This document shows positions 1,666 through 22,117 of a stretch of 64,000 nucleotides of DNA, in pieces; position 1 is the stretch's first letter; every line of letters begins with the position of its first letter. The notes under the pieces are model-generated. The model was not told where the DNA came from. It ran no database searches and worked only from the letters and a program-made list of their open reading frames with translations. The position numbers were made by a program, and so were the translations under genes. Source of the DNA: a virus; IMG/VR virus record IMGVR_UViG_3300024264_001555, positions 21,248 through 85,247 of that record, one strand, 5' to 3'.

Positions 1666-1673
1666 TATTTATC
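1666..1673 (-). promoter_or_regulatory. Possible late-type promoter octamer in the divergent intergenic region
   Basis: The minus strand reads GATAAATA here, one base from the T4 late octamer TATAAATA. It lies in the roughly 50 bp between the divergent starts at 1651 and 1701. A start site about 6 bp downstream would leave almost no leader for the gene at 1651, so the match may be chance. No convincing -35/-10 pair was seen for the rightward genes. Confidence 0.25.
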
Positions 1674-1700
1674 TGCGCAGTTAACTCAGGTAAATACGAT

Positions 1701-2543
1701 GTGAATATACTTACAGCAACAACATACACAGAAGACTGGCTAGACACTGATAGGCCGCAGCCATTAACCGATAAAACTATAGAACGTCTAATACAAGAAG
1801 TTATGCAAAATGACTTTAGTAAAGACACTAGTGATCAAGTGTACAAAGATTTTATTAAAGAGTGCGAGGCTTGGATTCAACTAATGCCACAAAACAATTT
1901 GACAGGATTTGAAACATTCAGTCGAAAAGATATCTGTATTGGTTGTACACAATTTATAGACAATCAATATATGGTCGGAGATGTACAAACACTAAAAGGC
2001 GATTATAAATACCATCAACGATTAGGAAATACGCCTGTTACTATAGACACATTAAAAGATAACATTCCTCTTATACTTGCATTGCCGTTTCCTAGCACAG
2101 GAGACATTATACAAGACGTTGACAAATTATTAGACTTATGCTATAATATGAGTATACCTGTACACATAGACGGAGCGTGGATTACTTGTTCAAGAAATAT
2201 TAATTTTAATTTTAATCATCCTGCTATAAAAAGCGTTGCTATTAGTTTAAGCAAAGGATTAGGACTAGGTTGGAACAGAATTGGTGTGCGTTGGTCAAAA
2301 GACACTACTGATTCAATTAGCATCATGAATGACTTTCGTATGAATAATAGAGTGCTTGCAATGGTAGGTTTACATTTTTTAAAAAATACAAGGCCTGGAC
2401 ATCTTTGGAGCACTCATTTAGAAAACTATTCAAAAATCTGTAAAGATTTTAATTTAAAAGAAACTAACAGTATACATATTGCTAAAGATCGTAGTGGGTC
2501 TCCAGTAGGAGTAAGCCCATTACTAAGGTACTTAGAAAAATGA
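1701..2543 (+). CDS. PLP-dependent aminotransferase/decarboxylase-fold protein
   Basis: The likely start is GTG at 1701 (280 residues), with AGG about 10 bases upstream. The frame is open back to 1566, but that stretch overlaps the divergent gene and its sequence (ending IFICAVNSGKYD) does not look like part of this family. HIDGAW (D157) followed by SVAISLSKGLGLGWNRIGVRW (K185) matches the fold-type I PLP pattern: Asp pairing with the pyridine nitrogen, then the Schiff-base Lys. At 280 residues it is shorter than typical 350-450-residue members and may lack part of the small domain. Its stop overlaps the next start by 4 bp (ATGA). The reaction cannot be assigned; an amino acid or amino sugar is the likely substrate class. 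Confidence 0.7.
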   Translation: MNILTATTYTEDWLDTDRPQPLTDKTIERLIQEVMQNDFSKDTSDQVYKDFIKECEAWIQLMPQNNLTGFETFSRKDICIGCTQFIDNQYMVGDVQTLKGDYKYHQRLGNTPVTIDTLKDNIPLILALPFPSTGDIIQDVDKLLDLCYNMSIPVHIDGAWITCSRNINFNFNHPAIKSVAISLSKGLGLGWNRIGVRWSKDTTDSISIMNDFRMNNRVLAMVGLHFLKNTRPGHLWSTHLENYSKICKDFNLKETNSIHIAKDRSGSPVGVSPLLRYLEK

Positions 2544-3238
2544 ATTTATTTTTTGACAAGAAATGGAATAATATTGCTGTAAGTGTTAGCGGCGGTGCAG
2601 ACAGTGCATTACTATTATATCTACTATGCAAAGAAGTTACTAGTCAGACAGTTCATATTATCAATAATGTAAGATGTTGGAAAACTAAACCTTGGCAAGA
2701 ACACGATGCAGAATATGTTATAACATGGATTAGAAAAAGATTTCCAGCAATAAACTTTAAACTACATAAAAACTTTATTGCTCCTGATATTGAATACGGA
2801 GAAATAGGACCTAGTATCAAAGACGAATACGGTAAAATAGTAAGTGGTGATAATATACAAATAAGATCGTATGCAGAATACGTATGCTTTAAAAATAATG
2901 TTGATGCTTACTATAATGGTGTTACTAAAAATCCAAATGAAAACTTAGGCGGAATGATAGAACGAGATATTGAACCTACAGAAGAAAATAAACATTTACT
3001 TATAATGGAACATATGGAAAGATATGCTATTCATCCATTTCGTTTTACTAGCAAAGATAAGTTAATTGAAAAATATAAACAAGAAGACATTGTAGATTTA
3101 TTTAATATTACTAGAAGTTGTGAAGGAACGTTTGATTGGTTAGATTATAGAAACTATAAAAAAGGCGAATTAGTTCCTGTCTGTAATGAGTGCTTTTGGT
3201 GCAAAGAAAGAGATTGGGCAGTAGATAATGCAAAATAA
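2540..3238 (+). CDS. PP-loop ATP pyrophosphatase with QueC-like C-terminal Cys cluster
   Basis: 232 residues. The N-terminus has the PP-loop SVSGGADSALLLYLL (SGGxDS at residues 17-22), which binds ATP to adenylate a carboxylate or carbonyl in N-type ATP pyrophosphatases. Near the C-terminus a Cys (SCEGTFDW) precedes CNECFWCKERDWA, i.e. C...CxxCxxC followed by R and A. That is the zinc-site pattern of QueC-type enzymes. The middle does not show other QueC features I can recognise, so QueC activity should not be assumed; an amide- or nitrile-forming or thiolating step is the general expectation. It overlaps both neighbours (4 and 11 bp) in a plus-strand unit with a PLP protein and two radical SAM proteins. 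Confidence 0.75.
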   Translation: MNLFFDKKWNNIAVSVSGGADSALLLYLLCKEVTSQTVHIINNVRCWKTKPWQEHDAEYVITWIRKRFPAINFKLHKNFIAPDIEYGEIGPSIKDEYGKIVSGDNIQIRSYAEYVCFKNNVDAYYNGVTKNPNENLGGMIERDIEPTEENKHLLIMEHMERYAIHPFRFTSKDKLIEKYKQEDIVDLFNITRSCEGTFDWLDYRNYKKGELVPVCNECFWCKERDWAVDNAK

Positions 3239-4493
3239 ATCATGTACATTCTGTATGCATCCTTTTACAGGACTTGCAACACGCAGTGACGGTGCTGTCA
3301 TGGCTTGCTGTCGTAGTCATCCTGTAGGTAATATACAAGAACAAACTCTTGAAGAAATTTGGAATAACGATACTATGAAACGTATTCGAAAACAAGTTTT
3401 AAATAATGATCGTCCTAGCGAATGTGCGCCATGCTTTAACCTTGAAGATCAGGGGGTAGAGAGCTTACGACAGCGTCATATAGCAGGAGTAATACCGGAA
3501 GCTAGGGTCAACTTATACCCTGATGCATTAGACGCATTAGACGAAGATTATAGCATGCCTTTCGAAATTCCTACTATGGAAATTAAGCTCAATAACTTGT
3601 GCAATTTAAAATGTCGTATGTGTCATCCAATGGATAGTACTAGTTGGAATGACTATAAAGAAGTAGAAGAATTTTATGTGAAAGAAGGTAACTTTATGGT
3701 TGAGGAAATACGTAAGCTCAACTTAATGAAAAAACCTTATTTGGACAAATTTGATGACAATCCAAATTGGTGGAATAGTTTTGAAAAGTTATTGCCTTAC
3801 TTTAGACGTGTAGAGTTTGCTGGGGGAGAACCATTAATGGATCCGCAACATTATCGTATACTCGATATGTTGGCTCCATACGGAGAAAACATTGAACTAA
3901 AGTATGCTACTAACGGAACAACTACCGGTATTAAAGGTGGACGTACTATACACGACTATTGGCCCAAGTTTAAAACAATCGCACTTAATGTAAGTATAGA
4001 TGGTATAGGCGATAGTTACGAATATGTACGAGGCAATGGCAAGTTCGAAGACATTATGGAGAACATAAAAGTTTTTAAAACTTTTCCTAATATTACAAGA
4101 ATAGTAGGTGCTGTTGCTGTACAAGTTAGTAATGTATTAATACTAGATAAAATGATAGAACACTTTCTTAACAATATAGGAATTGTATTTTACACAAACA
4201 TGGTAAATTATCCTAGAGTATTATGTCCACAAGTATTGCCCGAAGAATTAAAGCTAGAAGCAATTAGACGATTAGAAACTATAAAATTAGATGTTCCTAA
4301 CTTTTATTATGTAAAAGAAAATCCAATACTATTAAATATTACGCTAGGTCAAATAGACGGAATAATTAATTTTATAAAAGCAAACGATCAAAGCAATTTA
4401 TGGCAAGACACTATCGAATACAATAAAAGATTAGATGCAAGCCGTAATCAGTCTTTTCTTGATGCTACACCAGAGTTTAAACCATATGCATAG
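3228..4493 (+). CDS. Radical SAM protein with N-terminal auxiliary cluster (twitch/SPASM-like)
   Basis: 421 residues. The radical SAM core has LNNLCNLKCRMCHP (C125, C129, C132, CxxxCxxC binding the SAM-ligating 4Fe-4S cluster) and EFAGGEPLM, the GGEP motif that contacts SAM. Before it lies an N-terminal Cys set typical of twitch-domain radical SAM proteins: FCMHPFTGLATRSDGAVMACC (C9, C27/28) and CAPC (C66, C69), likely binding an auxiliary cluster. The same plan recurs in the proteins at 6409-7821, 15640-16830, 16820-18037 and 18000-19310. The reaction is unknown. The start overlaps the PP-loop gene by 11 bp, and the stop overlaps the next start by 8 bp. Confidence 0.88.
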   Translation: MQNKSCTFCMHPFTGLATRSDGAVMACCRSHPVGNIQEQTLEEIWNNDTMKRIRKQVLNNDRPSECAPCFNLEDQGVESLRQRHIAGVIPEARVNLYPDALDALDEDYSMPFEIPTMEIKLNNLCNLKCRMCHPMDSTSWNDYKEVEEFYVKEGNFMVEEIRKLNLMKKPYLDKFDDNPNWWNSFEKLLPYFRRVEFAGGEPLMDPQHYRILDMLAPYGENIELKYATNGTTTGIKGGRTIHDYWPKFKTIALNVSIDGIGDSYEYVRGNGKFEDIMENIKVFKTFPNITRIVGAVAVQVSNVLILDKMIEHFLNNIGIVFYTNMVNYPRVLCPQVLPEELKLEAIRRLETIKLDVPNFYYVKENPILLNITLGQIDGIINFIKANDQSNLWQDTIEYNKRLDASRNQSFLDATPEFKPYA

Positions 4494-5391
4494 CATAGAA
4501 AATCGTTGGGGACACCATACCAGTATTCATGTCGAATGGAATATTGGCAAACGCTGTAACTTAGATTGCGCTTACTGTCCTGCTGAAATACACGATAACT
4601 TTAGCCCTCACACTGATCTAAATGTTATGGTTAACACAATCTATGAATTGGAAAAGATTAATAAACCAATACGACTAAGTTTAACAGGAGGCGAACCTAC
4701 TGTACATCCTAAAATTAATGATATCTTAGAATGTGGAAGTCAACGACTACAGCGGCTAAGTGTTACTACAAACGGATTGCGTTCGCCAGAGTGGTATATT
4801 AAACAACCTGTAGATCAATGGGTATTTAGTTTGCACTTTGACAACGAACATAGCCGAAGAGCAGGCGAAAATATTATTAGATATAGTCAGTTACTAGACA
4901 TGGAGGGCAAGGATACGCTATTTCAAGTTAACTTAATGTGTCATCATGAATATATGAATCAAGTACGCGATGTAGCATCATTGCTTGAAAGTCATCGTAT
5001 TCCGTATGTGTGTAGACGAATACGATGGACTGATGCTGACGATCGAGAATGGTTTGACGATATGAGGTATAACGGACAAGACTTAGAATGGATACTTAGT
5101 AAAACTGCAACTGTGAAGGCAAACTGCGTCATAGACGGAAAAGATATGATACATGCTAATGATATTATTAAACATAAACTAAATCAATTCGAGGGCTGGA
5201 CTTGTAATGCAGGTTTAGAAAGTCTGATGATCAATTGGGACGGCGAGGTTCATCGTGCTACTTGTAGAGTAGGCGGTAGTCTAGGAAATATTTATAATGG
5301 TACGTTTAAACAACCTTTAGAACCAATTACTTGTACACGTAAGTGGTGTACTTGTGCTGCTGATATTCCGTTAACTAAAGTTTCTTCTTAG
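4486..5391 (+). CDS. Radical SAM protein with C-terminal Cys-rich (SPASM-like) tail
   Basis: 301 residues from ATG 4486 (MHSIENRWGH). The frame is open to 4435, but that part overlaps the preceding gene. The core motif is NIGKRCNLDCAYCPAE (C24, C28, C31) and the SAM-binding motif is SLTGGEPTVHP. The C-terminal part has FEGWTCNAGLESLMINWDG, then ATCRVGG, then TCTRKWCTCAADIPLTK, enough Cys for one or two auxiliary clusters. The proteins at 5375-6412 and 11412-12422 share this FxGWxCN...C...CxxxxC plan, so the three form a subfamily distinct from the N-terminal-cluster type. The 3' end overlaps the convergent neighbour by 17 bp. Confidence 0.88.
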   Translation: MHSIENRWGHHTSIHVEWNIGKRCNLDCAYCPAEIHDNFSPHTDLNVMVNTIYELEKINKPIRLSLTGGEPTVHPKINDILECGSQRLQRLSVTTNGLRSPEWYIKQPVDQWVFSLHFDNEHSRRAGENIIRYSQLLDMEGKDTLFQVNLMCHHEYMNQVRDVASLLESHRIPYVCRRIRWTDADDREWFDDMRYNGQDLEWILSKTATVKANCVIDGKDMIHANDIIKHKLNQFEGWTCNAGLESLMINWDGEVHRATCRVGGSLGNIYNGTFKQPLEPITCTRKWCTCAADIPLTKVSS

Positions 5392-6412
5392 TTAGATGTG
5401 TTTCAGGAGCACAAATACAATTAAACTTTGAACATATAGTTGGCTTTATTTCCGTATCAAATTTTTGTTCGAAGTCGTTGTCAAGTATGTTGTAGTAATA
5501 ATTCAAACCGTAAAGAAACTCTCCACAAGATCCTTTAAGTGTTCCGTCCCAATTAATAAAGATACTATCTACGCCAATGTTGCAACTCCATCCTTTAAAA
5601 TTGTTCCAATTTTTATTAATGTAAGTTCCGGACTCTGCTCTTACCTTTTTATTGTTTTCTAGTGTAGCAACACTTTCAGTATATCTAATTTCACCGTTTG
5701 CTATAAGATTTCTGTTATTCCAAAACCATTTAAAATTAGGTAATTGTTTTATACCCCATTTCATATACTTTTTCTGTTCCGGAGTATACTTTAAATCATC
5801 AGTGGTTATTATTCTAATGTCGTTTAACGTAGTTGATTCCGTTTCTATTACTTCTGCTACTGTAACAAACCATTTGTGTTTGCTGTTCCTTTTTAAATAT
5901 TCTACAGCATCTACACAATCGTCCCAACAAGTAGGATCCATCAAAACTTTTACAGTAATTTTCTTTCCTAAATCATACATAGCATCTGCTACACCAATTG
6001 TGTGATCTAAGTTTGCCTGAGCAACATGATGTGTCAAATGAATATTGTCTACGAGGTGTCCTTTTTCTTTCCACCACCGCAATGTTCGTGACCCATTAGT
6101 TATAAGACTAATATAAACATTGTGATCTTTTTTAATTTCTTGTACGAATATATCAAGATCTCTCCAAAGTGTAGGCTCTCCCCCCATAATTTCAATATGT
6201 GTTTTTGTTTTTCCTAACTGCTCTTTATAAACAGTTAACAAATGTTTGAAGTTTTTTATAATAAGATTTATATCTTTAGGGCTAGGATAGTCCCCGTCAT
6301 TACTACCTGGAAAACAGTATCTGCATTTAAAATTACAAACGTTATTAGGCATCCATCTAATATCTAGATAAGAGTCTTCTCTAGTAGATTTTATCTTAAT
6401 AGGGGTTGTCAT
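5375..6412 (-). CDS. Radical SAM protein with C-terminal Cys-rich (SPASM-like) tail
   Basis: 345 residues. Core motif MPNNVCNFKCRYCFPG (C26, C30, C33) and EIMGGEPTLW. The tail has FKGWSCNIGVDSIFINWDG and ICSKFNCICAPETHLTK, closely parallel to the convergent gene at 4486-5391 including the final LTK. The two look like an old duplication facing each other tail to tail. It is the last gene of the long minus-strand operon in this window; its start overlaps the upstream stop by 4 bp. The substrate is unknown. Confidence 0.88.
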   Translation of the reverse strand: MTTPIKIKSTREDSYLDIRWMPNNVCNFKCRYCFPGSNDGDYPSPKDINLIIKNFKHLLTVYKEQLGKTKTHIEIMGGEPTLWRDLDIFVQEIKKDHNVYISLITNGSRTLRWWKEKGHLVDNIHLTHHVAQANLDHTIGVADAMYDLGKKITVKVLMDPTCWDDCVDAVEYLKRNSKHKWFVTVAEVIETESTTLNDIRIITTDDLKYTPEQKKYMKWGIKQLPNFKWFWNNRNLIANGEIRYTESVATLENNKKVRAESGTYINKNWNNFKGWSCNIGVDSIFINWDGTLKGSCGEFLYGLNYYYNILDNDFEQKFDTEIKPTICSKFNCICAPETHLTKKKL

Positions 6413-7821
6413 AGCAAATGTTTCAATTCTGGAAATACTTCTTTTGCATTTAAGCCTCTAATTTTATCAAGGTTATTAACATAATCTTTAAAGTCAGGTA
6501 ATAAGTGTGAATGATCTTCTGCGTCGATAAATCTTAATATACCTTCCCAACGTTTCCAACCATAAGGATTTTCGTGCCAAAAGTTATCATCTTGTGTATA
6601 ATTGTCCCAAAGCCACTGTTTAAACTCTGCAAACTGTTCACGTATTTCTTGTTTGTCTTTTTCAGGTAATATCCTTGCACTTAAAAATGTAGGAATGTAC
6701 AGTAAATGTAGATTAATTATTCCGCCACCTGCTTCATAGATATCTGTTTTAAACTTATTAATTTTCTTATAGCCTTTAGTAAGTTTCCATTTTGCAAAGT
6801 GAACAATATGTTTTACATTTAATGCCTGTACTGCACAGGCAATATGACAATGTATATGATCCGGAGTATTATCCATTAACTCTAAACTACGCTCTACATC
6901 TTTCCACTTAGTAGGGTATCTAATATAATAGTTACGTTCGTCGACTGCATCTAAACTAAATGCAAATCTAACTTGTTTAAATTCTGTCCAAATATCGATC
7001 ATATCTTGATTTACAAAGACACCATTAGAGTTATATCGTAAACATATATTTTTAGCATATCCTCTTTTAATTATTTCTAATAAAAATTTTCTATGTTCTT
7101 TAATCATTAAAGGCTCACCGCCAGCAAAATACAACTGTTTAATATGTGGTATTTGTTCAAAAATTTCTTCCCAAAGTTCTGGCTTTTCGTACCATTTATT
7201 ATTAAACTTTGTTTTATCCCAACTTATTTGTCGTATAACTGTTTGACTGTTTGAGGTTGCTATAATCTTTTCGTAGTCTTCCATCCATCGACTGCTATCG
7301 TGCGGACTACACATTACACACTTCAAGTTACAAGTATGACCTAATCTTAAATCAAAATATTGTATTTCGTGCGGAATCTTTCCATCTTCGCTTGTATCTT
7401 TTATTAGCTGTGCAAAATCCAACCCATCGTTGTTCCATTCATGTAATTCCCAGAGACGTTTACTTACAACTCCGTTTGATTCTTCTTCAAAGCACTTTGT
7501 ACAACTAGCAGGTATTTTACCTTCTATCATTGTTTTTCTTACACTACACATGTAGTCATTATTAAATGCTTCTTTTAATGAATCTTTACCAAAGTTTGCA
7601 GGCTCACCATTTTCCATTTTAACAAGACCAACTTCGTGATCTCCTGTATGAGCACCTGATGCATTTGTTACACAGCAAAGTCTAGCATCACCGTTAGGTC
7701 TTGTTGCTATATGTATCCAAGGAAGTGCGCAAAATGTATAAGATCCTGTTTTTTCAAAAACATCTCGCTGTCCTTTTCCCATTCGACTATTTTCGTCTTG
7801 TAGCCAATATAAATCTTTCAT
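6409..7821 (-). CDS. Radical SAM protein with N-terminal auxiliary cluster (twitch/SPASM-like)
   Basis: 470 residues. The N-terminal Cys set is FCALPWIHIATRPNGDARLCC (C31, C49/50) and CTKC (C107, C110). The radical SAM core starts LRLGHTCNLKCVMCSPHDSS (C164, C168, C171) with YFAGGEPLM downstream. A plan of FCxxPWxHxxxxPxG...CC, CxxC, then CxxxCxxC is shared with four other proteins in the window. These N-terminal cysteines probably hold an extra iron-sulphur cluster that positions substrate or shuttles electrons. Overlaps of 4 bp on both sides indicate operon membership. Confidence 0.88.
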   Translation of the reverse strand: MKDLYWLQDENSRMGKGQRDVFEKTGSYTFCALPWIHIATRPNGDARLCCVTNASGAHTGDHEVGLVKMENGEPANFGKDSLKEAFNNDYMCSVRKTMIEGKIPASCTKCFEEESNGVVSKRLWELHEWNNDGLDFAQLIKDTSEDGKIPHEIQYFDLRLGHTCNLKCVMCSPHDSSRWMEDYEKIIATSNSQTVIRQISWDKTKFNNKWYEKPELWEEIFEQIPHIKQLYFAGGEPLMIKEHRKFLLEIIKRGYAKNICLRYNSNGVFVNQDMIDIWTEFKQVRFAFSLDAVDERNYYIRYPTKWKDVERSLELMDNTPDHIHCHIACAVQALNVKHIVHFAKWKLTKGYKKINKFKTDIYEAGGGIINLHLLYIPTFLSARILPEKDKQEIREQFAEFKQWLWDNYTQDDNFWHENPYGWKRWEGILRFIDAEDHSHLLPDFKDYVNNLDKIRGLNAKEVFPELKHLL

Positions 7822-8900
7822 AGCTCTTCCCTACTTGTAAATTGGTCCTGCGGCGTAGAAAACAATTCAGGTTGTATTCCGCAAGCTCTGCCGCAAGTAA
7901 TTAATTTTTTATCCGTCCAATAACTATTCCAAACATTTTGATATTCGTCTGAATTAATAATATCCTTCAACGGTTTTTTCTTTACGTCTAATGCGTCTAT
8001 ACCACCTAGTGATTTAACTAAGTCAAAATATTCTGCATAAATTGCTTCTCGAATTTCATGTAATTCGTGTTCCAAATCTTTAGGATGATACGGAATCATT
8101 GCAAGCCAACAACACGGAAATACATGCCCATAAGAATCTATGTAAACTTCTTTTACATGTTTTGCATAACAATTAATTTCTGTTTTTTCTAAAATACTTT
8201 TATAATTTCCAATAATATCGGTATCAACAATTTTAATAGTTGAATGTTGACTTGGTTCTAAATAATAATCAATATTACCTTGTTTATCCAAGACTTTAAA
8301 TTTAGGTTCCATTAACCACCGCGAACTATCTTTCATTGTAAAGTATTCAAACCCTATATCAATTGCTCGATGTCTTGCTTCTTCTACTTGATGTTCGTTA
8401 TGTTTAAATCTTATATAAGCCCATTCTGCAATGCCGCCGGCATCTATAAATGCTTTTGCATTTTCGATTATTTTTTCGTAACTAGTACCAATTCTATAAA
8501 TTGTTTGTGTATCTTCTAATCCATCTATAGCAAAAACTACTCTATGACTATTAGGCATAACTTTTGCTAAGTTTGTCCACCATTCTTTGCTTCTTAAACT
8601 ACCATTAGTATGTATAGTAATTTTGATATCTTTTTTAATAGAAGTAGTATACTCGACCATTTCGAGCAATTGGTCGTTCAATAATGGATCGCCATAGTTT
8701 CCACAAAAGTAAACATTTTCAATTTGCTCTATAACTTCTGGAGATATAATTTTTTTATAGTCATCAAGTGTCCATCCACGTTTATTAATATTAGGATTTT
8801 TAAGTCCTCCGTGAATATTTCTAGTACACATAGGACAACTTGCTTGACAGTTATTTGTAATTTCTAAATGGATTTGTTTAAGTTGATTAAAGTTTATCAT
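7818..8900 (-). CDS. Radical SAM protein, ITNxCQASCPMC subfamily
   Basis: 360 residues. The core motif lies near the start, LEITNNCQASCPMCTRNIHGG (C18, C22, C25). The C-terminus has a SPASM-like set: NCYAKHVKEVYIDSYGHVFPCC and a late TCGRACG. It is paralogous to the adjacent gene at 8910-9998 (shared CQASCPMCxRNIHGG, FCGxxGxP, FALDG/FAIDGL and PCC elements). Substrate specificity is unknown. The gap to its upstream neighbour is nine bases. Confidence 0.87.
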   Translation of the reverse strand: MINFNQLKQIHLEITNNCQASCPMCTRNIHGGLKNPNINKRGWTLDDYKKIISPEVIEQIENVYFCGNYGDPLLNDQLLEMVEYTTSIKKDIKITIHTNGSLRSKEWWTNLAKVMPNSHRVVFAIDGLEDTQTIYRIGTSYEKIIENAKAFIDAGGIAEWAYIRFKHNEHQVEEARHRAIDIGFEYFTMKDSSRWLMEPKFKVLDKQGNIDYYLEPSQHSTIKIVDTDIIGNYKSILEKTEINCYAKHVKEVYIDSYGHVFPCCWLAMIPYHPKDLEHELHEIREAIYAEYFDLVKSLGGIDALDVKKKPLKDIINSDEYQNVWNSYWTDKKLITCGRACGIQPELFSTPQDQFTSREEL

Positions 8901-8909
8901 TATATCTAC

Positions 8910-14316: not shown

Positions 14317-14332
14317 TATGTATATTATAAAC

Positions 14333-15643
14333 TCAATTGTTATTCATGTCAACAAAAAGTGATAAAAATTTAGGCTGCATGCGTCTTGTTAAAAATATTT
14401 CACGATTCTTTTTTAAAAACGGTATTGCTTCTGCTATTAATTCGCTTATATCTTCACTACTAAGACTTTTTAGATATTCAATATTTTTTCTAATATGCTC
14501 TGCACGGTTTGTAGGATCGTACATTGTATCATAATGTTGATTAATTAATGCATTGCAACTAAAATATCCTTGATTATTAAGGTAATTATGGACCGACGAA
14601 CATCCTATAATAGCCGCAGGGTGTCCGATATATATGTGTTTCCATACGTTAGGTCCTAACGTAAATGATGCTACCTCTTGTTTATACTGAGTATTAACAT
14701 CAATCTCAATGTCATCACACAATATAGATAATACTGTATCTTGGTATTCTTCGATATTGTAATTCATTAACGTATTGTTAACTTCTTGCGAATAATTGTC
14801 TATATGTTTTAATAATCCTTGTTTAGATTCTTTTTCAAGTTGCGAAGATCTAGGATTAACTAGCATAGGCGATATTGTTTTAGATAAATTATAGTTACTT
14901 GAATTTAACTTAACATACCCGTCATCAAGTAAGTTATTATGAGCCAACTCAAGAAATACAGTTACATCTGTCTGAAAATAATTTGTAAACGAAGTATTGT
15001 AAACTTTTTTAGGGTTCCAATTTTCGTGGTCAATAGTCAAATCTTTTGATATCTTTAAAAATGGATCTTCACATATCCACGATAATGACGACAATCCACT
15101 TCGAACTTTATAAACTAATTGCATATATATTTGCCACCAATCTATACCAAAAACGTTTTTAGTGTCTAACAACGTCCTATATACATTATTTAATTCTCCT
15201 AGCACAATGTATATTTGGCTTTTTTTAATACCAAGTAATTCTACTATTTCGTCAACTCTTTGCTTTAACTGTTCAATAATAAAAGAATTACCGGCTAGCC
15301 TCGGAGCTAAAATTAATAATTTTAACCTTCCCTTTTTTATTAAACTTTTAGCTCTAGGGGATATTAGTGCTGTTAAGTTTCTATTCCAGCCGTAATAAGA
15401 ATAATTTAATTCAATAGGATAATATAAATTTTTAATATTTTTAGGCTTGCCTGACACAAGGTTTACTACTGTTTTATTTGCTTTCATTACAAAATAAAAC
15501 GTATTAAACTTTGCTATAGGCATCTCTGCTCTATAATCTTTAACGTATGGAATTCTCCGAGCGTCTTTAGATATTTCAAAATTAAATGTACCGTTAGGTG
15601 CCGGAACGCCGTCAATTATATTATCGTAATATAAATTTATCAT
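14333..15643 (-). CDS. Uncharacterised protein, glycosyltransferase-like C-terminus
   Basis: 436 residues, not firmly recognised. The C-terminal stretch FTLGPNVWKHIYIGHPAAIIGCSSVHNYLNNQGYFSCNALINQHYD, then a repeat of acidic and Arg residues (PTNRAEHIRKNIEYL), resembles a conserved element of many phage and bacterial glycan genes: a K.....G.P.I..G....L...GY.....I.E.YD...N...R pattern. The middle contains LLILAPRLAGNSFI and QIYIVLGELNN, consistent with a Rossmann-like unit. A GT-B-type sugar-transferase role is inference. The stop precedes the next start by 16 bases, and the 5' end overlaps the upstream radical SAM gene by 4 bp. Confidence 0.5.
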   Translation of the reverse strand: MINLYYDNIIDGVPAPNGTFNFEISKDARRIPYVKDYRAEMPIAKFNTFYFVMKANKTVVNLVSGKPKNIKNLYYPIELNYSYYGWNRNLTALISPRAKSLIKKGRLKLLILAPRLAGNSFIIEQLKQRVDEIVELLGIKKSQIYIVLGELNNVYRTLLDTKNVFGIDWWQIYMQLVYKVRSGLSSLSWICEDPFLKISKDLTIDHENWNPKKVYNTSFTNYFQTDVTVFLELAHNNLLDDGYVKLNSSNYNLSKTISPMLVNPRSSQLEKESKQGLLKHIDNYSQEVNNTLMNYNIEEYQDTVLSILCDDIEIDVNTQYKQEVASFTLGPNVWKHIYIGHPAAIIGCSSVHNYLNNQGYFSCNALINQHYDTMYDPTNRAEHIRKNIEYLKSLSSEDISELIAEAIPFLKKNREIFLTRRMQPKFLSLFVDMNNN

Positions 15644-16830
15644 TCAAGCATTTCTTTTAATTCCGGGAACGTGTCTATAAACGACTCATTGCGTATGTCA
15701 TCTAATGTTTTCATATAATCTTTAAATTTAGAATTTAAGATATATTTGTCTTCTGATTCCATAAAACTAATAGAACTTTCAAACTGAGCAGCGGAGCGAT
15801 TCTGCAAATTTTCTTTTAAAAAACTTATATGCTTTTTATAGGCTGCTTTTACTGTTTCTTTTAGCTTTGGCGGCAATGCTTGTAAGCTCATATGTTCAGG
15901 CGAATGTACAAAGTTAATATGTAAATTATCGTAGGTATCTATTAATTTAGACTCTACTGCATAATGATGGAAATCAATAATATGCAAACTATTCATTACG
16001 CTTAATGTAAAGTTTACAAAAAAGTTAACATTAGGCGCTATTTCTTTTTGTTTTAACCTATTTTGATAGATTTGATCCCAATCAGTTCCTTTTCGGATAT
16101 ATTCTGCTTGTTTGCCGTAGCCATCAAAACTAGCACCTACTTCGACATCTTTAAACTTAGCCCATGTTTCTAAAGCGTCTAGCTTTTTGTATTTCATCTG
16201 ACTAAAATTTGTATTATACTTTAGACGAACGTCATACCTATCTATTTCTTCTAACTTTTTTAAAATTCTATAATGTTCTTCCATTATAAGAGGCTCGCCG
16301 CCTGCAAAATAAATCTCTTCTACAGTATCAAAAAACGGAAGAATTTGGTCCCATAAATCAAATTGCTTAATTTTATCAGGTATATCGTTAGGAAGACTGC
16401 CCCATATCTTTTTAGTATCTTCATACCAACCGGTGCTAAGTTGAGGTCCGCAGCTTCTGCATTTCATATTACAAATGTTTGAAAATCTAAAATCCCAATA
16501 ACGAAGATCCATATTATCTAACGAACCGTCAGCAGCGGTGGTTTGTATTAGATTTTCATAATTTGGAAACGTTTGATTCATATGCTCTCTAAAGCTATCT
16601 TTGCCGTGTTTTTCTTGTTCGAAGCATCGTTTACAGCTTTCTGGCTCTATACCTGCAATCATTTGTTTACGAATATTACGTATTTTTTCGTTATTCCAAA
16701 CTTCTTCTAAGGATTGGTTATTTAGATTTCCTACAGGAAATTCCATAGGTGTAAGGCAACAAGGATAAACTTGCCCACTCGGAAATGTGTGTAGATGCAC
16801 CCACGGTGCAGCGCATAATTTATCTGTCAT
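15640..16830 (-). CDS. Radical SAM protein with N-terminal auxiliary cluster (twitch/SPASM-like)
   Basis: 396 residues, the most compact member of the type. N-terminal ligands are LCAAPWVHLHTFPSGQVYPCC (C6, C24/25) and CKRC (C66, C69); core FSNICNMKCRSCGPQ (C120, C124, C127) and YFAGGEPLIM follow. The C-terminal FIDTFPELKEML resembles SYAETFKEWHNII and EVFPELKHLL at the ends of its paralogues. An 11-bp overlap with the upstream radical SAM gene shows these were assembled as one transcription unit. The substrate is unknown. Confidence 0.88.
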   Translation of the reverse strand: MTDKLCAAPWVHLHTFPSGQVYPCCLTPMEFPVGNLNNQSLEEVWNNEKIRNIRKQMIAGIEPESCKRCFEQEKHGKDSFREHMNQTFPNYENLIQTTAADGSLDNMDLRYWDFRFSNICNMKCRSCGPQLSTGWYEDTKKIWGSLPNDIPDKIKQFDLWDQILPFFDTVEEIYFAGGEPLIMEEHYRILKKLEEIDRYDVRLKYNTNFSQMKYKKLDALETWAKFKDVEVGASFDGYGKQAEYIRKGTDWDQIYQNRLKQKEIAPNVNFFVNFTLSVMNSLHIIDFHHYAVESKLIDTYDNLHINFVHSPEHMSLQALPPKLKETVKAAYKKHISFLKENLQNRSAAQFESSISFMESEDKYILNSKFKDYMKTLDDIRNESFIDTFPELKEMLE

Positions 16831-18037
16831 TGTTTGCCTTTATTATGTTGTGCCACTCTTTAAACGTCTCTGCGTAACTCTGTTTACGTATAGCATCTAG
16901 TCTTTCGTTCTCTTTGAAGAACTGTTCAAATGCTAGTGTGTTTGATTCTTGACTTAAAAAATTATTTATACTACCATAGAACGGCATGCCGACAATCTTG
17001 TCTAATACTGCTTGTTTGGCATGTTGAGGCGCATTTGCTGCACTGTAATAGTTAGGATGATGTACCATATTATGTGATACATTAACACCCTTGCTTCTAA
17101 AGAACTCCCAAAACTCTTTGATATAGTATATGTTCATTACACTTACTGTTTGTAACACATAACTTTTATGTCCTAAGCTATGTAACCAATCAAATGCTTC
17201 TATTATATTATTCCACTTAGCAGGATGACGCAAATAATTATTGCGGTCTTCTAAACAATCAATACTCACCATAAACTCAACCTGCTTAAACTTGTTCCAC
17301 AAGTTAACGTACTTGTCGTTTATGATTGTACTGTTGGTACTGTATACTAGTGTAATATTCTTAGCCAAATCTTTGGTAATCAAAAACTCTAAGAAGCGCA
17401 TGTGCTTGTCTACTAGCAGAGGTTCGCCGCCGTTAATGTATACTTTGCGTGTGTTATTACAATGTTCTGCTAGACTTACCCAAAAGCGTTCATCTAAGGG
17501 CCAATCAAACATGCTTTGTGGCATATCAAATTTACGCTCATTTAGTTTTTCCCAGTCGCTCTTCCATTTTGAACTGCTCTGTGGATTGCAACTGCGACAT
17601 GCTAGGTTGCAAATATTGCCTAGTCGCAGTTCAATAAACTCAAAGTTAACTTCATCTAGTGTGCCGTCTGTTTGTGTAATACGCTGTGCATCTTCTATGC
17701 TAAAGTCCAGCAACTCTGTGTCTCGGGTACGTTTGCTTTGATTGCCTAGTGTTTCTAGTTTGTAACACTTTGTACAAGGTGCTGGCTGTTTACCTTCTAG
17801 CATGTCTTTGCGCACTTGTTTAAACAAGTCTGAGTTCATTATTTTTTTAAAATCATACTCTGAGTTGTGCAGTGTGATAAATTCACGTGGTAAATTTTGA
17901 GATTCGCTTGCACGATTCGTCATATCGCTTTCACAGCAAAGTGTAACACTACCGTGCGGATGTGTTGCTAAGTGTGTCCACGGTAAAGGGCAAAATGTAT
18001 TACTCAATGCTATCCCACCATTCTTTACCTGCGTCAC
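16820..18037 (-). CDS. Radical SAM protein with N-terminal auxiliary cluster; start uncertain
   Basis: 405 residues from the ATG at 18037, overlapping the upstream gene by 38 bp. A TTG at 18007 with GGTGGG eight bases upstream would give MSNTFCPLPW, closer to the short N-termini of its paralogues and reducing the overlap to 8 bp. Either start keeps FCPLPWTHLATHPHGSVTLCC (C16, C34/35), CTKC (C88, C91) and the core LRLGNICNLACRSCNP (C143, C147, C150), with YINGGEPLL downstream. It belongs to the five-member N-terminal-cluster type. Function beyond radical SAM chemistry cannot be assigned. Confidence 0.86.
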   Translation of the reverse strand: MTQVKNGGIALSNTFCPLPWTHLATHPHGSVTLCCESDMTNRASESQNLPREFITLHNSEYDFKKIMNSDLFKQVRKDMLEGKQPAPCTKCYKLETLGNQSKRTRDTELLDFSIEDAQRITQTDGTLDEVNFEFIELRLGNICNLACRSCNPQSSSKWKSDWEKLNERKFDMPQSMFDWPLDERFWVSLAEHCNNTRKVYINGGEPLLVDKHMRFLEFLITKDLAKNITLVYSTNSTIINDKYVNLWNKFKQVEFMVSIDCLEDRNNYLRHPAKWNNIIEAFDWLHSLGHKSYVLQTVSVMNIYYIKEFWEFFRSKGVNVSHNMVHHPNYYSAANAPQHAKQAVLDKIVGMPFYGSINNFLSQESNTLAFEQFFKENERLDAIRKQSYAETFKEWHNIIKANNDR

Positions 18038-19310
18038 TAAGAGTGTCTCTAAATGTAACGTCTTGCGTTCTGATGCTTTCTATAAACATTATATTCTTTT
18101 TACCTCGTCTCCAACCATCTTTATAGTCAGTGTATTCTTCTTCAAACGTTTTGCGTTCAAGCATGTTTTCTAATGTTTCTTGGTACACACGAGTTTTGTG
18201 TGTAACTCTAGGCTTAATGTAGTCTAGTAGTTTGTGTATTTGCTCATCTAATACTTCTCTTGGCAAACACATAGGACTCATTAGAACACTAGGGTCAAAT
18301 GCAAATGTAATTTTAAAGTAACTCTTAACATCTAATTCTGTAACTACATCAAACATACGTTTCAAATCAAACAATCCCGGAGTTGTTAGTGTAACATCAA
18401 ATACTAATGCATCGTCTCCATACTTATTGATAAGAAACATGCCATCTTTGAAGTTTTGTAGCCACTCGTCCCATTTGAGTCCTGTTCTAATGTATTCGCC
18501 GACTTCGCCTACCCCGTCTATACTAGCACAAAGGTTAACACGTTTGAAGTTATCTAGCATGTCGTACAGTTTATAATTCTTGTAGTGTGTTCTGCTCAAG
18601 TTTGTATTATAACGTACAACTACGTCTTGGCTTTTTTCTTCGTCTACTAGCTGTTGCATAATACGCCAATGTATATCATACATAAGTGGCTCGCCGCCTA
18701 CCCAGTATAACTCCTCTACAATGCCTTTGTCAACTGCTGTTTGTAGTTCTGTTTCGAGAACTTCTTTTTGAAATGTAGCAATCTTCTTTCGTGTGTCTGG
18801 TTGCATCCATTTTTCACGTTTGTAGTTAACTACATTATGTTTAATCTTTTCAGTTTCCCAACTTGAACTAAGTTGTTCACCGCACATGCGACATTTAAAA
18901 TTACAAAGATTGCTTATACGATAATCAAAACTAATTGGTTGCATAGTTGTGTAGCCGTCTTCTTTTGTACTAGCTATTATGTCTTCGACTTTGTGCGGAA
19001 ATAGTGTATTAGTAAAATAGTTTTTGTATGTATGTAAATTTAATACTTGATTATTACACACATCGCACTGGCTTAGTTTTTCTCCGGCTAACATACGCTT
19101 ACGAATATCTTTCATATAATCGCTGTTCCAATGTTCTTCGAGTGTTATTGGATCAAATTCAGTGTTGTCTTTATCACCTGCATCTATATACTGCTTTTGA
19201 AAACTTGCATCTTCTCTACTAGCACAACACAACCTACGCTCGCCTTGCGGGCTAACGTAAGTATGTGTCCAGGGTGCTGTGCAAAAGTAAGGTCCAATTT
19301 TATCAGTCAT
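18000..19310 (-). CDS. Radical SAM protein with N-terminal auxiliary cluster (twitch/SPASM-like)
   Basis: 436 residues. FCTAPWTHTYVSPQGERRLCC (C10, C28/29) and CDVC (C82, C85) form the N-terminal ligand set; RISNLCNFKCRMCGEQ holds C136, C140 and C143, and YWVGGEPLMY is the GGEP motif. CASIDGVGEVGEYIRTG follows the shared pattern xSIDGxxxxxxYIRxG of the group. An 8-bp overlap with the upstream gene, and an overlap with the downstream start, indicate coupling. Confidence 0.88.
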   Translation of the reverse strand: MTDKIGPYFCTAPWTHTYVSPQGERRLCCASREDASFQKQYIDAGDKDNTEFDPITLEEHWNSDYMKDIRKRMLAGEKLSQCDVCNNQVLNLHTYKNYFTNTLFPHKVEDIIASTKEDGYTTMQPISFDYRISNLCNFKCRMCGEQLSSSWETEKIKHNVVNYKREKWMQPDTRKKIATFQKEVLETELQTAVDKGIVEELYWVGGEPLMYDIHWRIMQQLVDEEKSQDVVVRYNTNLSRTHYKNYKLYDMLDNFKRVNLCASIDGVGEVGEYIRTGLKWDEWLQNFKDGMFLINKYGDDALVFDVTLTTPGLFDLKRMFDVVTELDVKSYFKITFAFDPSVLMSPMCLPREVLDEQIHKLLDYIKPRVTHKTRVYQETLENMLERKTFEEEYTDYKDGWRRGKKNIMFIESIRTQDVTFRDTLSDAGKEWWDSIE

Positions 19311-20751
19311 ACGTTGCCAAAGGTATTTCTATGTTTTTATTATCAGGTTTTAATATCCAACCTTCTTTTTCTGCAAGTTCCATAATGCTTGCATCAGTAT
19401 CTGGAATACTATCGACCCAGTCTGTTAGTATTTTAGGAAATACACTTAGGCTTTTGTTTCTACGTACATCATACTGTGCATAGAATGTTTTAAAATCACG
19501 CCATAGTGTAGTAGGGTTACTTGTACGTCTATGCGGAGCATCTACAGTTACCAAGTAATCTATTAAACGTTCAATACTTGCTTTTTCAAACTCACTCCAG
19601 CCCGGCTTGTCTTTGTTAGCTTCATACCATGTTGACAATTTATTATGGCAATGATCCTTAATATGATTAGGCAATGCCAGCGGTGATTGAAAACTCGGAA
19701 AGCGTAATAAGTTTAAACTTACAGTTGGCGTTCTACTTTGTGTGAGCTCTTTTAGTTTGTAAACATCATCTAAGAATTCTGTAATACTAAACAAGCAAAG
19801 ACTGTTAATAGTCATCATAATGTGTACGCCTTTAGTATTTGCTTCTGTTAGTATACGTTTAATATTTTTAGTCCATTCGTCATAATCTAGTCCGTCACGA
19901 ATATAATCTGCTTGAGCACCTACTGCTTCACAACTAGTATACAACTCAAAGTGATTCATACCTTGTGTTTTCTCAATTAGCTTGTCTATAATAGCATCTT
20001 TAGCAATTAGATTGCTATTAATTGCAAAACGCATATCTGAATCTTGCTTATTAAACCAATCAAACAACTTCCAAGTGTTTCCGCTCATTAAAGGTTCGCC
20101 GCCAGTGATACGCAGTTCCTCTAAACTGTCTGCTAAACCATTATCCCACCATTTCCAAAACGCTTGAATGTAAGGATTATCGTCATCATCTTTGTAAGGT
20201 TGTGTCCAACTGCCGTCTTGTCTAAATGCACCAGCGCCATCACTTACTAAGTTTGTGTACTCGCCATTCTTTTTAATATCTTTAGCCCACGTAGTTGAGA
20301 AACTTGCATTGCAATAACTACATGCTAAGTTACACGTTCTATCAAAAGCAATCTCAAATGTTTTTAGATTAACATTCTCATGATGATCCATATCATATGC
20401 ACGTTGTAACTCTTCATCAGAATAGATAATGCTTTTAAAGGTTCTGTCACTGACAGCATCCTTTTTCATATCTTCCATTTTCCAACAATACTCGCACTCA
20501 GCTGGGCGTTCACCTGTCTGCATTTGGCGGCGCATTTCTTTTTTATGCTTGGTATTATGAATAGCAGTGTAGTCTGCTTCTACTTCTACTAATGGAATTT
20601 TATGTGCAGGCGGGTGATGACAACTAGCAGTTGTACCACTACCAAGCCAGGTAGTAGCGTTAAACCACTTGGCTCCGCAGAAACTCTTACTTTTATTGTC
20701 TAATACTCTATCACGATACTGTTGTAACGTTTCATCAGTCTTCTTTGGCAT
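19303..20751 (-). CDS. Radical SAM protein, CHH-variant N-terminal domain
   Basis: 482 residues. The core reads AFDRTCNLACSYCNAS (C140, C144, C147) and RITGGEPLMS. Its N-terminal set departs from the others: FCGAKWFN (C25), then ASCHHPPAHKIPL (C44 followed by two His) in place of CC, then CEYC (C86, C89). The following gene has the same CHHP.AHKIPL element, so it is a conserved subtype and not a decayed copy. A His ligand or a changed substrate pocket is possible. It overlaps its neighbours by 8 and 17 bp. Confidence 0.87.
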   Translation of the reverse strand: MPKKTDETLQQYRDRVLDNKSKSFCGAKWFNATTWLGSGTTASCHHPPAHKIPLVEVEADYTAIHNTKHKKEMRRQMQTGERPAECEYCWKMEDMKKDAVSDRTFKSIIYSDEELQRAYDMDHHENVNLKTFEIAFDRTCNLACSYCNASFSTTWAKDIKKNGEYTNLVSDGAGAFRQDGSWTQPYKDDDDNPYIQAFWKWWDNGLADSLEELRITGGEPLMSGNTWKLFDWFNKQDSDMRFAINSNLIAKDAIIDKLIEKTQGMNHFELYTSCEAVGAQADYIRDGLDYDEWTKNIKRILTEANTKGVHIMMTINSLCLFSITEFLDDVYKLKELTQSRTPTVSLNLLRFPSFQSPLALPNHIKDHCHNKLSTWYEANKDKPGWSEFEKASIERLIDYLVTVDAPHRRTSNPTTLWRDFKTFYAQYDVRRNKSLSVFPKILTDWVDSIPDTDASIMELAEKEGWILKPDNKNIEIPLATYD

Positions 20752-22117
20752 TCCATTCCTCTAATAAATGTGTATACTGTGGAAATATTTCTGCAAAATC
20801 TTTATTTCTTCTTTTGTCGTACGCTTGTATGTATCTTACAAAGTCTTCTCTGTGTTCCACTGTTGGTTCTGAGGTTCTTAAATAATCACAAAATCTTTGT
20901 ATTTGATCAAACTCTTCTAAATATATTCTAGCATACTTTTCTTTAGTATAATATTTTAACCAACTTTTGCAAAGTGTTTCAATAGTGTTAGCAGTCTTTA
21001 CACGTTGTTCTTTATCGAGCAAAGTACATTGAAGATGCGGAGGCCAATGCATAATATTAATACTCAACGGCACTCTATTACACTCAAAACTAGTATTATA
21101 AAGTTTACGCAAATCCATTACCGTCATAATAAAGTCGACGAATGTAGGCAAGCTAAGAATGTTAATTGTTGTCATAATTGCAACTGTGCTTTTTGTTTCA
21201 GAAAGCAAACGCTCTATGTTTTTAACCCAATCATAGTATACTAATCCGTCTCTAGCATATTCCGCCTGGCGGCCTGTGCTTTCAAGACTAGTGTATATGT
21301 CAACTTTAACTCCTACTTTTGCAAGTTTGTTAACTTTTAAAATTAGTTTGTCAATTAGTTTATCTTCTACACATCCGTTTGTATTAATGGAAATGTCTAA
21401 ACCTTTGCGTGGATTTTCTATTAGATAATCTAGAAGCTTCCAGGTATCTTTTGACATAGTAGGCTCGCCGCCTGTGATACGCAACACTTTTAAATGCGGT
21501 AATGCATCAGGAAACCATTTCCAAAATGCTTCTACATAAGGATTATGTTCTCTATTAGGTATTGGCATCTTACCAGACTCTTTTAAATAGTCTAGATTAT
21601 GCGAACCGTGCTTGGTTGGATATTCTCCGTGTTGCTTTACGTCTTCCATCCACTTGCTACTAATCTCAGGTGAACAGTATGCACAAGCAAAGTTACAAGC
21701 ATTACTAAATGATACTTCTAAGTAACTTGGGTACACATCGTCTTGTGGATTGCTTTTAGCAATATCTTCAAATCTATCCCAGGCCCAAGAGTCACTTGTT
21801 TTATAATGTCTATCACTAAAATAGTTTTTATCTAAGTCTTCAATTTTCCAACAGTATCCGCACTCCTTAGGACGCTCACCTTTAAGCATCTTAGCACGTT
21901 GTTCTTTTTTAAACTTACTGTTGTGTAGTGCCGCTGGATTTGCTTCAATTTCGTGCAACGGAATCTTATGTGGAGCAGGATGATGACAACTGTGATTGTA
22001 ACCGTTTTGTAATAGTAGCGTAGTTTGTAACCATTTAGCCGTACAGAATGAACAACTTACATTGTTTATCTTTTCACGTTTTTCTTCTAGTACTTGTATA
22101 CGCTGTTCATTACTCAT
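20735..22117 (-). CDS. Radical SAM protein, CHH-variant N-terminal domain (tandem paralogue)
   Basis: 460 residues, a tandem paralogue of the next gene. FCTAKWLQ (C25), NHSCHHPAPHKIPL (C44, H45, H46) and CGYC (C86, C89) align with it position for position; the core is FSNACNFACAYCSPEISS (C141, C145, C148) and RITGGEPTMS. Both keep a long acidic insert with WMEDVKQHGEYP or WAKDIKKNGEYT after the core motif. It is the first radical SAM gene read from the promoter at 26,109-26,137. Confidence 0.87.
   Translation of the reverse strand: MSNEQRIQVLEEKREKINNVSCSFCTAKWLQTTLLLQNGYNHSCHHPAPHKIPLHEIEANPAALHNSKFKKEQRAKMLKGERPKECGYCWKIEDLDKNYFSDRHYKTSDSWAWDRFEDIAKSNPQDDVYPSYLEVSFSNACNFACAYCSPEISSKWMEDVKQHGEYPTKHGSHNLDYLKESGKMPIPNREHNPYVEAFWKWFPDALPHLKVLRITGGEPTMSKDTWKLLDYLIENPRKGLDISINTNGCVEDKLIDKLILKVNKLAKVGVKVDIYTSLESTGRQAEYARDGLVYYDWVKNIERLLSETKSTVAIMTTINILSLPTFVDFIMTVMDLRKLYNTSFECNRVPLSINIMHWPPHLQCTLLDKEQRVKTANTIETLCKSWLKYYTKEKYARIYLEEFDQIQRFCDYLRTSEPTVEHREDFVRYIQAYDKRRNKDFAEIFPQYTHLLEEWNAKED

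Follow-up and report, generated by a model that had tools for sequence, protein, structure and literature searches.

Tail-fibre genes followed by two GT8-like genes, a GT-A-like gene, at least one radical SAM (rSAM) gene of the N_Twi family and then a variable array form a core operon in many marine jumbo T4-like viruses. The window analyzed here (the 64,000 nucleotides at positions 21,248 to 85,247 of IMG/VR record IMGVR_UViG_3300024264_001555) carries this operon with twelve rSAM genes that are intact and under purifying selection. Because the rSAM genes adjoin fibre genes in an operon that recurs in many ocean viruses, the twelve rSAM proteins and the sugar-attaching enzymes probably decorate either the fibres of the virus or the surface of its host. 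The more specific reading that we favor, at a probability of roughly 0.45, is that a cytoplasmic pathway of glycosylation and radical chemistry, with exchangeable rSAM cassettes, decorates the phage's own tail-fibre proteins before assembly.

The variable array with its edge and the core rSAM pair (1566-22117) are composed as follows, genes being referred to below by their first coordinate:

1566..2543, + strand, PLP-dependent aminotransferase-like, island edge (transaminase model E 1.1e-5, 24 bits vs. a cut-off of 402; SAR11 phage Mosig has a homologue at E 4e-7)
2540..3238, + strand, PP-loop ATPase-like (below the cut-offs of both PF01171, E 0.0012, and the TilS-type N-terminal model, E 8e-5)
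3228..4493, + strand, rSAM, N_Twi (PF04055 36.5 bits, SPASM 49.8, NF033640 330 bits)
4435..5391, + strand, rSAM with C-terminal Cys-rich region (PF04055 39.4 bits; alignment)
5375..6412, - strand, rSAM with C-terminal Cys-rich region (PF04055 49 bits)
6409..7821, - strand, rSAM, N_Twi (PF04055 54.1 bits, NF033640 390 bits)
7818..8900, - strand, rSAM, paralogue of 8910 (PF04055 45.1 bits, SPASM 23; homologue in Mosig, E 2e-20)
8910..9998, - strand, rSAM, paralogue of 7818 (PF04055 34.2 bits)
9999..10817, - strand, putatively SGNH-hydrolase-like from its GCSxTxG motif (no family match; weakly similar to a Mosig protein matched by the s8 profile)
10810..11415, - strand, s9, probable SAM-dependent methyltransferase (weak Spermine_synth, E 0.0085; profile match, E 4e-38, to an annotated methyltransferase of Mosig)
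11412..12422, - strand, rSAM with C-terminal Cys-rich region (PF04055 45.6 bits)
12382..14316, - strand, GT-A-like with N-terminal repeats (Glycos_transf_2 E 0.0072 at 450-529, below cut-off)
14333..15643, - strand, s5, GT-B-fold glycosyltransferase-like (AlphaFold2 pLDDT 90; Foldseek VldE/ValL E 2.7e-4, low TM-score)
15640..16830, - strand, rSAM, N_Twi (SPASM 52 bits, NF033640 410 bits)
16820..18037, - strand, rSAM, N_Twi (PF04055 44.9 bits, SPASM 28.4)
18000..19310, - strand, rSAM, N_Twi (PF04055 36.6 bits, NF033640 323 bits)
19303..20751, - strand, core rSAM, N_Twi, second of the conserved pair (NF033640 305 bits; synteny)
20735..22117, - strand, core rSAM, N_Twi, first of the conserved pair (PF04055 40.1 bits; 70 related loci)

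All twelve rSAM genes of the original prediction were recovered by profile search and motif alignment, spanning 3228-22117, two on the + strand and ten on the - strand; the interval proposed for them, 2540-22117, also took in the PP-loop protein at 2540-3238, which is not an rSAM, and the oxygenases placed within it actually lie at 986-1828 and upstream of the window. The CxxxCxxC motif holds, CX3CX2C being invariant in 12/12 on alignment. Ten of the twelve exceed the Pfam Radical_SAM (PF04055) cut-off of 29.5 bits, and the remaining pair, 15640 (27.5 bits) and 19303 (23.2 bits), were identified by N_Twi_rSAM (NF033640, cut-off 170 bits over the full model), at 410 and 305 bits, respectively. 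Seven of the twelve belong to this family, five scoring above 170 bits directly (3228, 6409, 15640, 18000, and 19303) and two through identical copies in record G001 (16820 and 20735); 5375, 7818, and 11412 scored 34-51 bits, below the cut-off, and 4435 was absent among the best 25 listed, 8910 lying outside the scan. A six-frame search of the entire 85,247-bp record gave 13 PF04055 matches, and a thirteenth rSAM gene lies ~3 kb upstream of the window. The SAM-binding barrel was sought by modeling one protein of the twelve, 20735, and its AlphaFold2 model (pLDDT 93) is rSAM-like, having six alternating strands and helices and rSAM enzymes as its best PDB matches.

Mis-assembly of the island is excluded by a 200,843-bp record that is 98.8% identical over 63 kb and by a second record (L011/G001) with the same island. 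Purifying selection is evident in the dN/dS values of 16820 (0.070/1.125), 18000 (0.033/0.523), and 19303 (0.028/0.508). The genes 7818 and 8910 are moderately related paralogues (41% identical), whereas the other rSAMs of the window match best to proteins of different viruses rather than of their own genome; on this ground, a recent origin of the array by tandem duplication was rejected. Viperin-like production of antiviral nucleotides was likewise rejected, the best viperin (NF038283) score being 53 bits (5375) vs. a cut-off of 180.

Next to the array lie the conserved operon and the virion block (22114-53696):

22114..22611, - strand, acetyltransferase-like, in some relatives (PF05292 24.5 bits vs. 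a cut-off of 23.2; cluster in 9 loci)
22608..23507, - strand, GTa1, conserved GT-A-like (blast supergroup shared with 12382, invariant synteny; no database match of its own in family and PDB profile searches)
23507..24073, - strand, s7, conserved operon protein (synteny; phrog_25321 E 2e-4)
24054..24893, - strand, GT8-like glycosyltransferase (family profile vs. glycogenin E 0.0018; invariant synteny)
24886..25740, - strand, GT8-like glycosyltransferase (same GT8-like family profile as 24054)
25737..26084, - strand, s6, conserved small operon protein (synteny)
26145..27173, - strand, F2 virion protein, fibre-associated (homologue of PA5oct gp360, found by ESI-MS/MS)
27177..28097, - strand, F2 virion protein, fibre-associated (homologue of PA5oct gp360)
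28127-29674, 29711-31672, and 31672-33765, - strand, three F1 tail-fibre proteins (PHROG tail/virion matches; homologues of PA5oct gp358 and gp359)
33769..34383, - strand, 204-aa virion protein (38% identical to PA5oct gp357, found by ESI-MS/MS)
34405-50205, - strand, giant virion protein of 5266 aa, with the wedge forming the upstream part of the virion block (PHROG virion structural protein; PA5oct gp355/gp354 block)
50205-53696, - strand, baseplate wedge (PHROG baseplate wedge; PA5oct gp355/gp354 block)

The order fibres, GT8, GT8, s7, GTa, rSAM was invariant in the loci found with rSAM keys. Two keys independent of the rSAMs were also used, the GT8-like gene 24886..25740 and the 204-aa virion protein 33769..34383, the latter chosen because a scan keyed on F2 27177 returned the same virus only. 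Where three or more genes lay beyond the GT8 pair, an rSAM gene was among them in 57/59 GT8-keyed loci; the GT8-keyed locus L143 had GTa and s5 genes with no rSAM up to the contig end. With the virion protein as key, GT8 genes were present in 42/42 loci having at least two genes beyond F2, and an N_Twi rSAM above cut-off in 24/32 of these records. The anatomy of this recurring fibre-GT8-GTa-rSAM operon looks new; INPHARED gave no match for 20735 or GT8. Island genes overlap or abut in operon-like fashion, and no convincing T4-type late promoter pattern was seen upstream of the operon. PDB profile searches with F2 and GTa gave nothing useful.

The conserved core has one or two rSAMs and the remaining rSAMs are a pool that varies among related viruses; the earlier proposal of a single linear pathway with one step per enzyme is conjectural. 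The number per locus ranges from one to many, from which we conclude that the core can do without most of the rSAMs. The substrate is likely to be specified by the phage, as first suggested, because these are virus genes and the core rSAMs share an invariant operon with virion fibre and sugar-transferase-like genes. The earlier view that the array is far outside the usual phage content was only partly right, given the precedents CP220 (11 rSAMs), CPt10 (12), IBB_35 (6), and TARA_ERS488813_N000010 (12); IMG/VR records with 12-18 are also found repeatedly. Fe-S assembly genes were rejected as partners: the Fe-S A-type carrier PF01521 was absent from the 25 records examined, and therefore the published Fe-S link fails here.

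Modification of the fibres is suggested by the operon linkage, the homology to PA5oct virion proteins, the predicted solubility of the enzymes, their glycosyltransferase-like partners, and purifying selection, and a SAM synthetase gene in a sister genome also counts in its favor. A virion-protein modification system would be expected in an operon with virion genes, as is found. Against it, adjacency is no proof of substrate, the transferase assignments are moderate to weak, and the varying rSAM number and the locus L143 also count. In the proposed pathway, soluble transferases would attach sugars to the fibre polypeptides in the host cytoplasm prior to assembly. Host electron carriers would reduce the rSAM enzymes, and the phage's own SAM synthetase would provide part of their SAM; the rSAMs may then epimerize, oxidize, cross-link, or deoxygenate at C-H positions of fibre side chains or of the attached sugars. 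Cassettes of extra rSAMs, transferases, and oxygenases swapped between viruses could diversify the fibre surface. That a modular rSAM and glycosyltransferase system builds virus-specific post-translational modifications of the tail fibres, with cassette exchange diversifying fibre chemistry, is a possibility that we offer tentatively. Phage fibres modified in this way are not known to us, a further point against the pathway. If fibre decoration were true, phage-host contact would be altered beyond amino-acid sequence, and the islands would offer a wealth of radical SAM chemistry as yet unexplored.

The sugar chemistry might instead be directed at the host, remodeling LPS or capsule glycans of the infected cell, perhaps as a means of keeping competing phages out; the proximity of rSAM and fibre genes would then reflect their membership of one co-evolving host-recognition region. 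The KDO-type and other surface-sugar genes of the genome are compatible also with this reading, and related islands or the sister genome have genes for a nucleotide-sugar dehydrogenase, epimerase, carbamoyltransferase, KDO-pathway-like proteins, sulfotransferase, and cytidylyltransferase. Glycosyltransferase genes of pelagimyophages (PMC7029224) and jumbo cyanophage clusters (PMC7824862) have been read in this way, and a pagP-annotated gene near the K566 cluster would fit. However, hydropathy predicts no membrane segments in any island enzyme and none of the hallmarks of O-antigen or serotype conversion (membrane transferase, flippase, polymerase) among them, and the strict linkage is to virion genes. 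We regard host remodeling as the main rival, though as rather unlikely.

We consider it quite unlikely that the variable array is unlinked cargo, each gene having its own target without a common product, that piles up behind the fibres because of a recombination hot spot. Array content does differ widely among related viruses, the rSAMs of the window other than 7818/8910 have their best matches elsewhere, and an rSAM module is interchangeable between CP220 and CPt10 (PMC2853527), but the core order is fixed across many loci, the genes overlap in operon style, and rSAMs repeatedly accompany glycosyltransferases in several phage lineages.

Improbable too is a small diffusible metabolite, such as an antibiotic or signal, made from sugar and amino-acid parts and released during infection. 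The aminotransferase-like, PP-loop, methyltransferase-like, and carbamoyltransferase genes recall natural-product clusters, and Iyer et al. proposed secondary metabolites for cyanophage clusters with a halogenase and carbamoyltransferase (PMC7824862); yet the fibre linkage is strict, there is no scaffold synthase or exporter, and no RiPP precursor was seen in the packed operon. A RiPP cluster was judged improbable, as there is little room for a precursor (the shortest ORF on the operon strand among the overlapping or abutting genes is 115 aa, ORFs under 60 aa being outside the systematic search) and no named maturase, the scanned rSAMs scoring well under the cut-off of every peptide-maturase model. 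Modification of nucleic acids (hypermodified bases or tRNA) is highly improbable: the genome has a QueE-like and a Vut_1-family transporter gene, and rSAM methylation was suggested for the refractory DNA of IBB_35 (PMC3322345), but the linkage is to fibre and not replication genes and 0/12 rSAMs reach the cut-off of any named nucleic-acid-modifying family scanned.

Phages rich in rSAMs have been on record since 2010, with no function assigned. Other phages likewise have rSAMs clustered close to tail or fibre genes, which counts for fibre decoration. CPt10 (12 rSAMs, reported in 2010) and CP220 (11) are T4-related and share an exchangeable five-rSAM module (PMC2853527), which in CP220 is followed by two nucleotide-sugar-transferase-like genes with baseplate lysozyme and PAAR genes nearby. 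The CP220 rSAMs, however, are distant and mostly non-N_Twi by profile, no F1/F2 fibre or GT8-like homologues were found in that stretch, and CP220 has an amidinotransferase, whereas none is among the Pfam matches of the window. The window matches the CP220-type organization of several rSAMs and nucleotide-sugar transferases near tail genes with block exchange, a likeness of arrangement that need not mean common descent. The marine T4-like genome TARA_ERS488813_N000010, compared by description, also has twelve rSAM genes, but the 2017 report lists an Fe-S A-type carrier gene alongside them and interprets the set as Fe-S metabolism (PMC5332604).

Pelagimyophages carry rSAM cassettes in a host-recognition cluster (PMC7029224), with dioxygenases, desaturase, and carbamoyltransferase beside the tail fibres as in Mosig EXVC030M. 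Mosig has homologues of window genes 7818, 10810, and 1566 and of gene 12606 of locus L009, but belongs to another phage family, has three annotated rSAMs only, and its stretch gave no match to the N_Twi, GT8, F1, or F2 profiles. A SAR11 host was not accepted by this analogy, the affinities of the capsid and baseplate genes being with jumbo phages of the Phosso/GAP32/PA5oct type. In Vibrio phage K566, a smaller cluster combines two GT8 genes and a GT4-like gene with four rSAMs of the N_Twi type; its adjoining Gly/Ser-rich, fibre-like protein was rejected as an F2 homologue by sequence comparison. A pagP-annotated gene lies near the K566 cluster. These smaller related islands in cultured phages, Mosig EXVC030M (SAR11), K566 (Vibrio), and CP220, make the proposal testable.

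The closest counterpart of the fibre block is in PA5oct (NC_071039), where wedge, giant protein (this pair being homologous to gp355 and gp354), 201-aa protein, two F1, and F2 occur in identical order and the counterparts of the block are virion proteins detected by mass spectrometry, but without GT8, GTa, or rSAM genes behind them. A fixed operon of core rSAMs and fibres, set beside a cultured phage that has the homologous fibre block minus the rSAMs, poses a testable question: do radical enzymes chemically remodel phage fibres?

Profile searches confirmed all twelve of the radical SAM (rSAM) genes claimed in the original prediction, which lie within 3228-22117, and in an alignment the CX3CX2C motif was invariant in 12/12 of their products. 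Seven of the twelve matched the N_Twi_rSAM model (NF033640) with scores of 305-410 bits (cut-off, 170 bits). Genes 7818 and 8910 (genes are designated by their first coordinate) are paralogs with 41% identity, and the aligned products of genes 4435, 5375, and 11412 have a Cys-rich C-terminal region. The first gene of the interval originally proposed (2540-22117) proved by profile search to encode a PP-loop protein rather than an rSAM, and the oxygenases expected in that interval were found upstream of it, where a domain search identified TauD and Asp_Arg_Hydrox domains; small upstream proteins with an invariant H-x-D and distal H and R are probably also oxygenases, judging from these residues. 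The window covers positions 21248-85247 of an IMG/VR virus record (85,247 bp), which has two further genes of note:

L009:17045-18091, a thirteenth rSAM, located ~3 kb upstream of the window, whose N-terminus has an HMPTM-family Zn-ribbon
L009:48-944, a QueE-like gene

The best NCBIfam matches of the thirteenth rSAM were TrsS and the tetraether synthase Tes, both far under cut-off, and a fatty-acid-desaturase-like gene is located ~4.5 kb from it.

The product of gene 20735, the sole rSAM modeled, had a mean pLDDT of 93, and its best PDB matches (SkfB, BlsE, NifB, MgmA, GDGT-MAS, PqqE, and MoaA) are rSAM enzymes, leading us to consider it an rSAM by predicted fold, although the TM-scores were low and do not pin down its substrate. 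Purifying selection acts on the rSAM genes; Nei-Gojobori dN/dS for the five closest ortholog pairs was as follows:

18000, 0.033/0.523
19303, 0.028/0.508
16820, 0.070/1.125
20735, 0.092/0.622
11412, 0.152/0.98

Mis-assembly can be dismissed as the source of the island, as a sister genome, G006 (IMGVR_UViG_3300024255_001563, 200,843 bp), matches 63 kb of the window at 98.8% identity, and in G001, from a third dataset, the island genes recur in unchanged order. By sequence comparison the source virus, whose genome sequence is incomplete, is assigned to a marine jumbo-T4-like lineage: the G006 major capsid protein shares 71% identity with its counterparts in Sinorhizobium phage Phosso and Vibrio phage 2.275.O and 69% with those in GAP32 and Serratia BF, and the window baseplate wedge has matches in jumbo phages, among them PA5oct, Atu_ph07, and SCTP-2.

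A scan with rSAM 20735 as key identified 70 loci, noting that all locus counts here contain near-duplicate contigs and are not independent events. In the majority order, three genes of fibre family F1 are followed by one or two of F2 (also fibre or fibre-associated), island family s6, two GT8-like genes, s7, a GT-A-like gene, an optional small acetyltransferase-like gene, an N_Twi rSAM pair, and, last, a variable array made up of rSAMs alternating with s5, s8, s9, s11, s12, and a second GT-A gene. To limit ascertainment, further scans used non-rSAM keys. With the GT8 key, an rSAM was present beyond the GT8 pair in 57 of the 59 loci having at least three genes there; of the two exceptions, the L116 contig stops right behind the GT-A gene, and in L143 s5 genes take the place of the rSAM. 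With a 204-aa virion protein as key, GT8 genes were present in all 42 loci having at least two genes beyond F2, and 24 of 32 of these records had an N_Twi rSAM above cut-off (1 to 16 matches each, counting any strength). In loci L272 and L278, the gene for the 204-aa protein and the three F1 genes are succeeded by genes on the opposite strand, and the stretch has neither F2 nor GT8; no N_Twi rSAM was found in their available records, and it is possible that the operon was lost or is absent. The highest rSAM count per record was 18, in the viral record G009. Its genes at L083:114-1616 and L083:6468-7901 encode an rSAM, which has a weak B12-binding match, and a tricarboxylate transporter of the TctA family.

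The GT8-like family profile matched glycogenin (E 0.0018) but a Pfam search of these genes gave no match, so their assignment as glycosyltransferases is of moderate confidence. The s5 product (14333) is predicted to have a GT-B fold (AlphaFold2 pLDDT 90; Foldseek VldE/ValL, E 2.7e-4, TM about 0.3). Database searches with GTa1 (22608) gave no match, and its name, GT-A-like, rests on a weak Glycos_transf_2 match of its relative 12382; visual inspection of 12382-14316 showed about four similar segments, each of some 95 residues, ahead of the GT-A-like domain. Hydropathy alone predicted no membrane segments in the island enzymes. Related islands additionally encode a nucleotide-sugar dehydrogenase, sugar epimerase, and carbamoyltransferase, and G006 has, beyond the window, KDO-pathway-like genes, a sulfotransferase, carbamoyltransferases, and:

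L099:10551-11642, a complete S-adenosylmethionine synthetase in which all three Pfam domains are present
L101:12861-14390 and L101:15067-16548, two tryptophan-halogenase-family proteins (303 and 357 bits)

The synthetase would fit a high SAM demand in a genome rich in SAM-using enzymes. The halogenase-family genes lie close to a carbamoyltransferase gene and to long fibre-like genes that form a second cluster, a further case of unusual modifying enzymes next to fibres.

The cultured phage PA5oct has a run homologous to the window gene by gene: baseplate wedge, giant protein, 201-aa protein, a pair of fibre proteins, and gp360 (blastp E 1e-147 to 2e-11; E 4e-46 for the F2 profile against gp360). 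The genes of this run bear an "ESI-MS/MS" note in the sequence record. The giant protein is longer in the window (34405-50205, 5266 aa) than in PA5oct (3857 aa). A fibre-like protein elsewhere (L069:3-1742) has an apparent intein/Hint-like stretch, judged by eye. The PA5oct block stops after gp360, the next gene being on the opposite strand, and none of the s6, s7, GT8, GTa, s5, or rSAM profiles matched this stretch; the transferase and rSAM set of the window thus sits immediately behind a virion block that elsewhere exists alone. What the data show are the identities of the genes, their arrangement as an operon, its recurrence, the selection acting on the genes, and that the fibre homologs are virion proteins; the substrate, step order, and purpose of the pathway are inferred. 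Our preferred reading is that soluble transferases and rSAMs decorate the fibres, since virion genes are a strict companion of the island whereas all other features vary, and since a related fibre block is known that carries none of these enzymes. The strongest rival, remodeling of the host surface by the island enzymes, draws support from sugar genes elsewhere in the genome, whereas the strict virion-gene link argues for the fibres. Some of the variable array could be accounted for by unlinked cargo.

None of the open-access papers searched (a set that leaves out most subscription journals and preprints) described the fibre-GT8-rSAM operon. Virion glycosylation as such has precedent in mycobacteriophages, whose capsid and tail tube are known to be glycosylated (cited in PMC12619734), and related jumbo-cyanophage clusters were taken by Iyer et al. 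as capsule decoration or metabolite, with rSAMs unmentioned (PMC7824862). Multiple rSAMs are known from CP220 (11) and CPt10 (12), along with an interchangeable module (PMC2853527), IBB_35 (six; PMC3322345), and a TARA T4-like genome (twelve; PMC5332604), and pelagimyophages have rSAM cassettes inside the host-recognition island (PMC7029224). The presence of rSAM genes near tail or fibre genes recurs in several phage groups. In Vibrio phage K566, four N_Twi rSAMs are accompanied by a GT4-like gene and two GT8 genes whose PF01501 matches exceed the cut-off; a Gly/Ser-rich protein (L109:18755-19432), restricted within INPHARED to K566 and K567, starts a short run of an unknown protein, GT8, and rSAM, and could be a fibre, though it lacks a homolog to show so. 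In Campylobacter phage CP220, the neighborhood of the baseplate lysozyme and PAAR genes contains five rSAMs together with an amidinotransferase and two nucleotide-sugar-transferase-like genes. Between its tail fibres and VrlC, SAR11 phage Mosig EXVC030M carries rSAMs, which its annotation lists as "molybdenum cofactor enzymes", together with dioxygenases, a desaturase, and a carbamoyltransferase, and it has homologs of several of the window and upstream genes.
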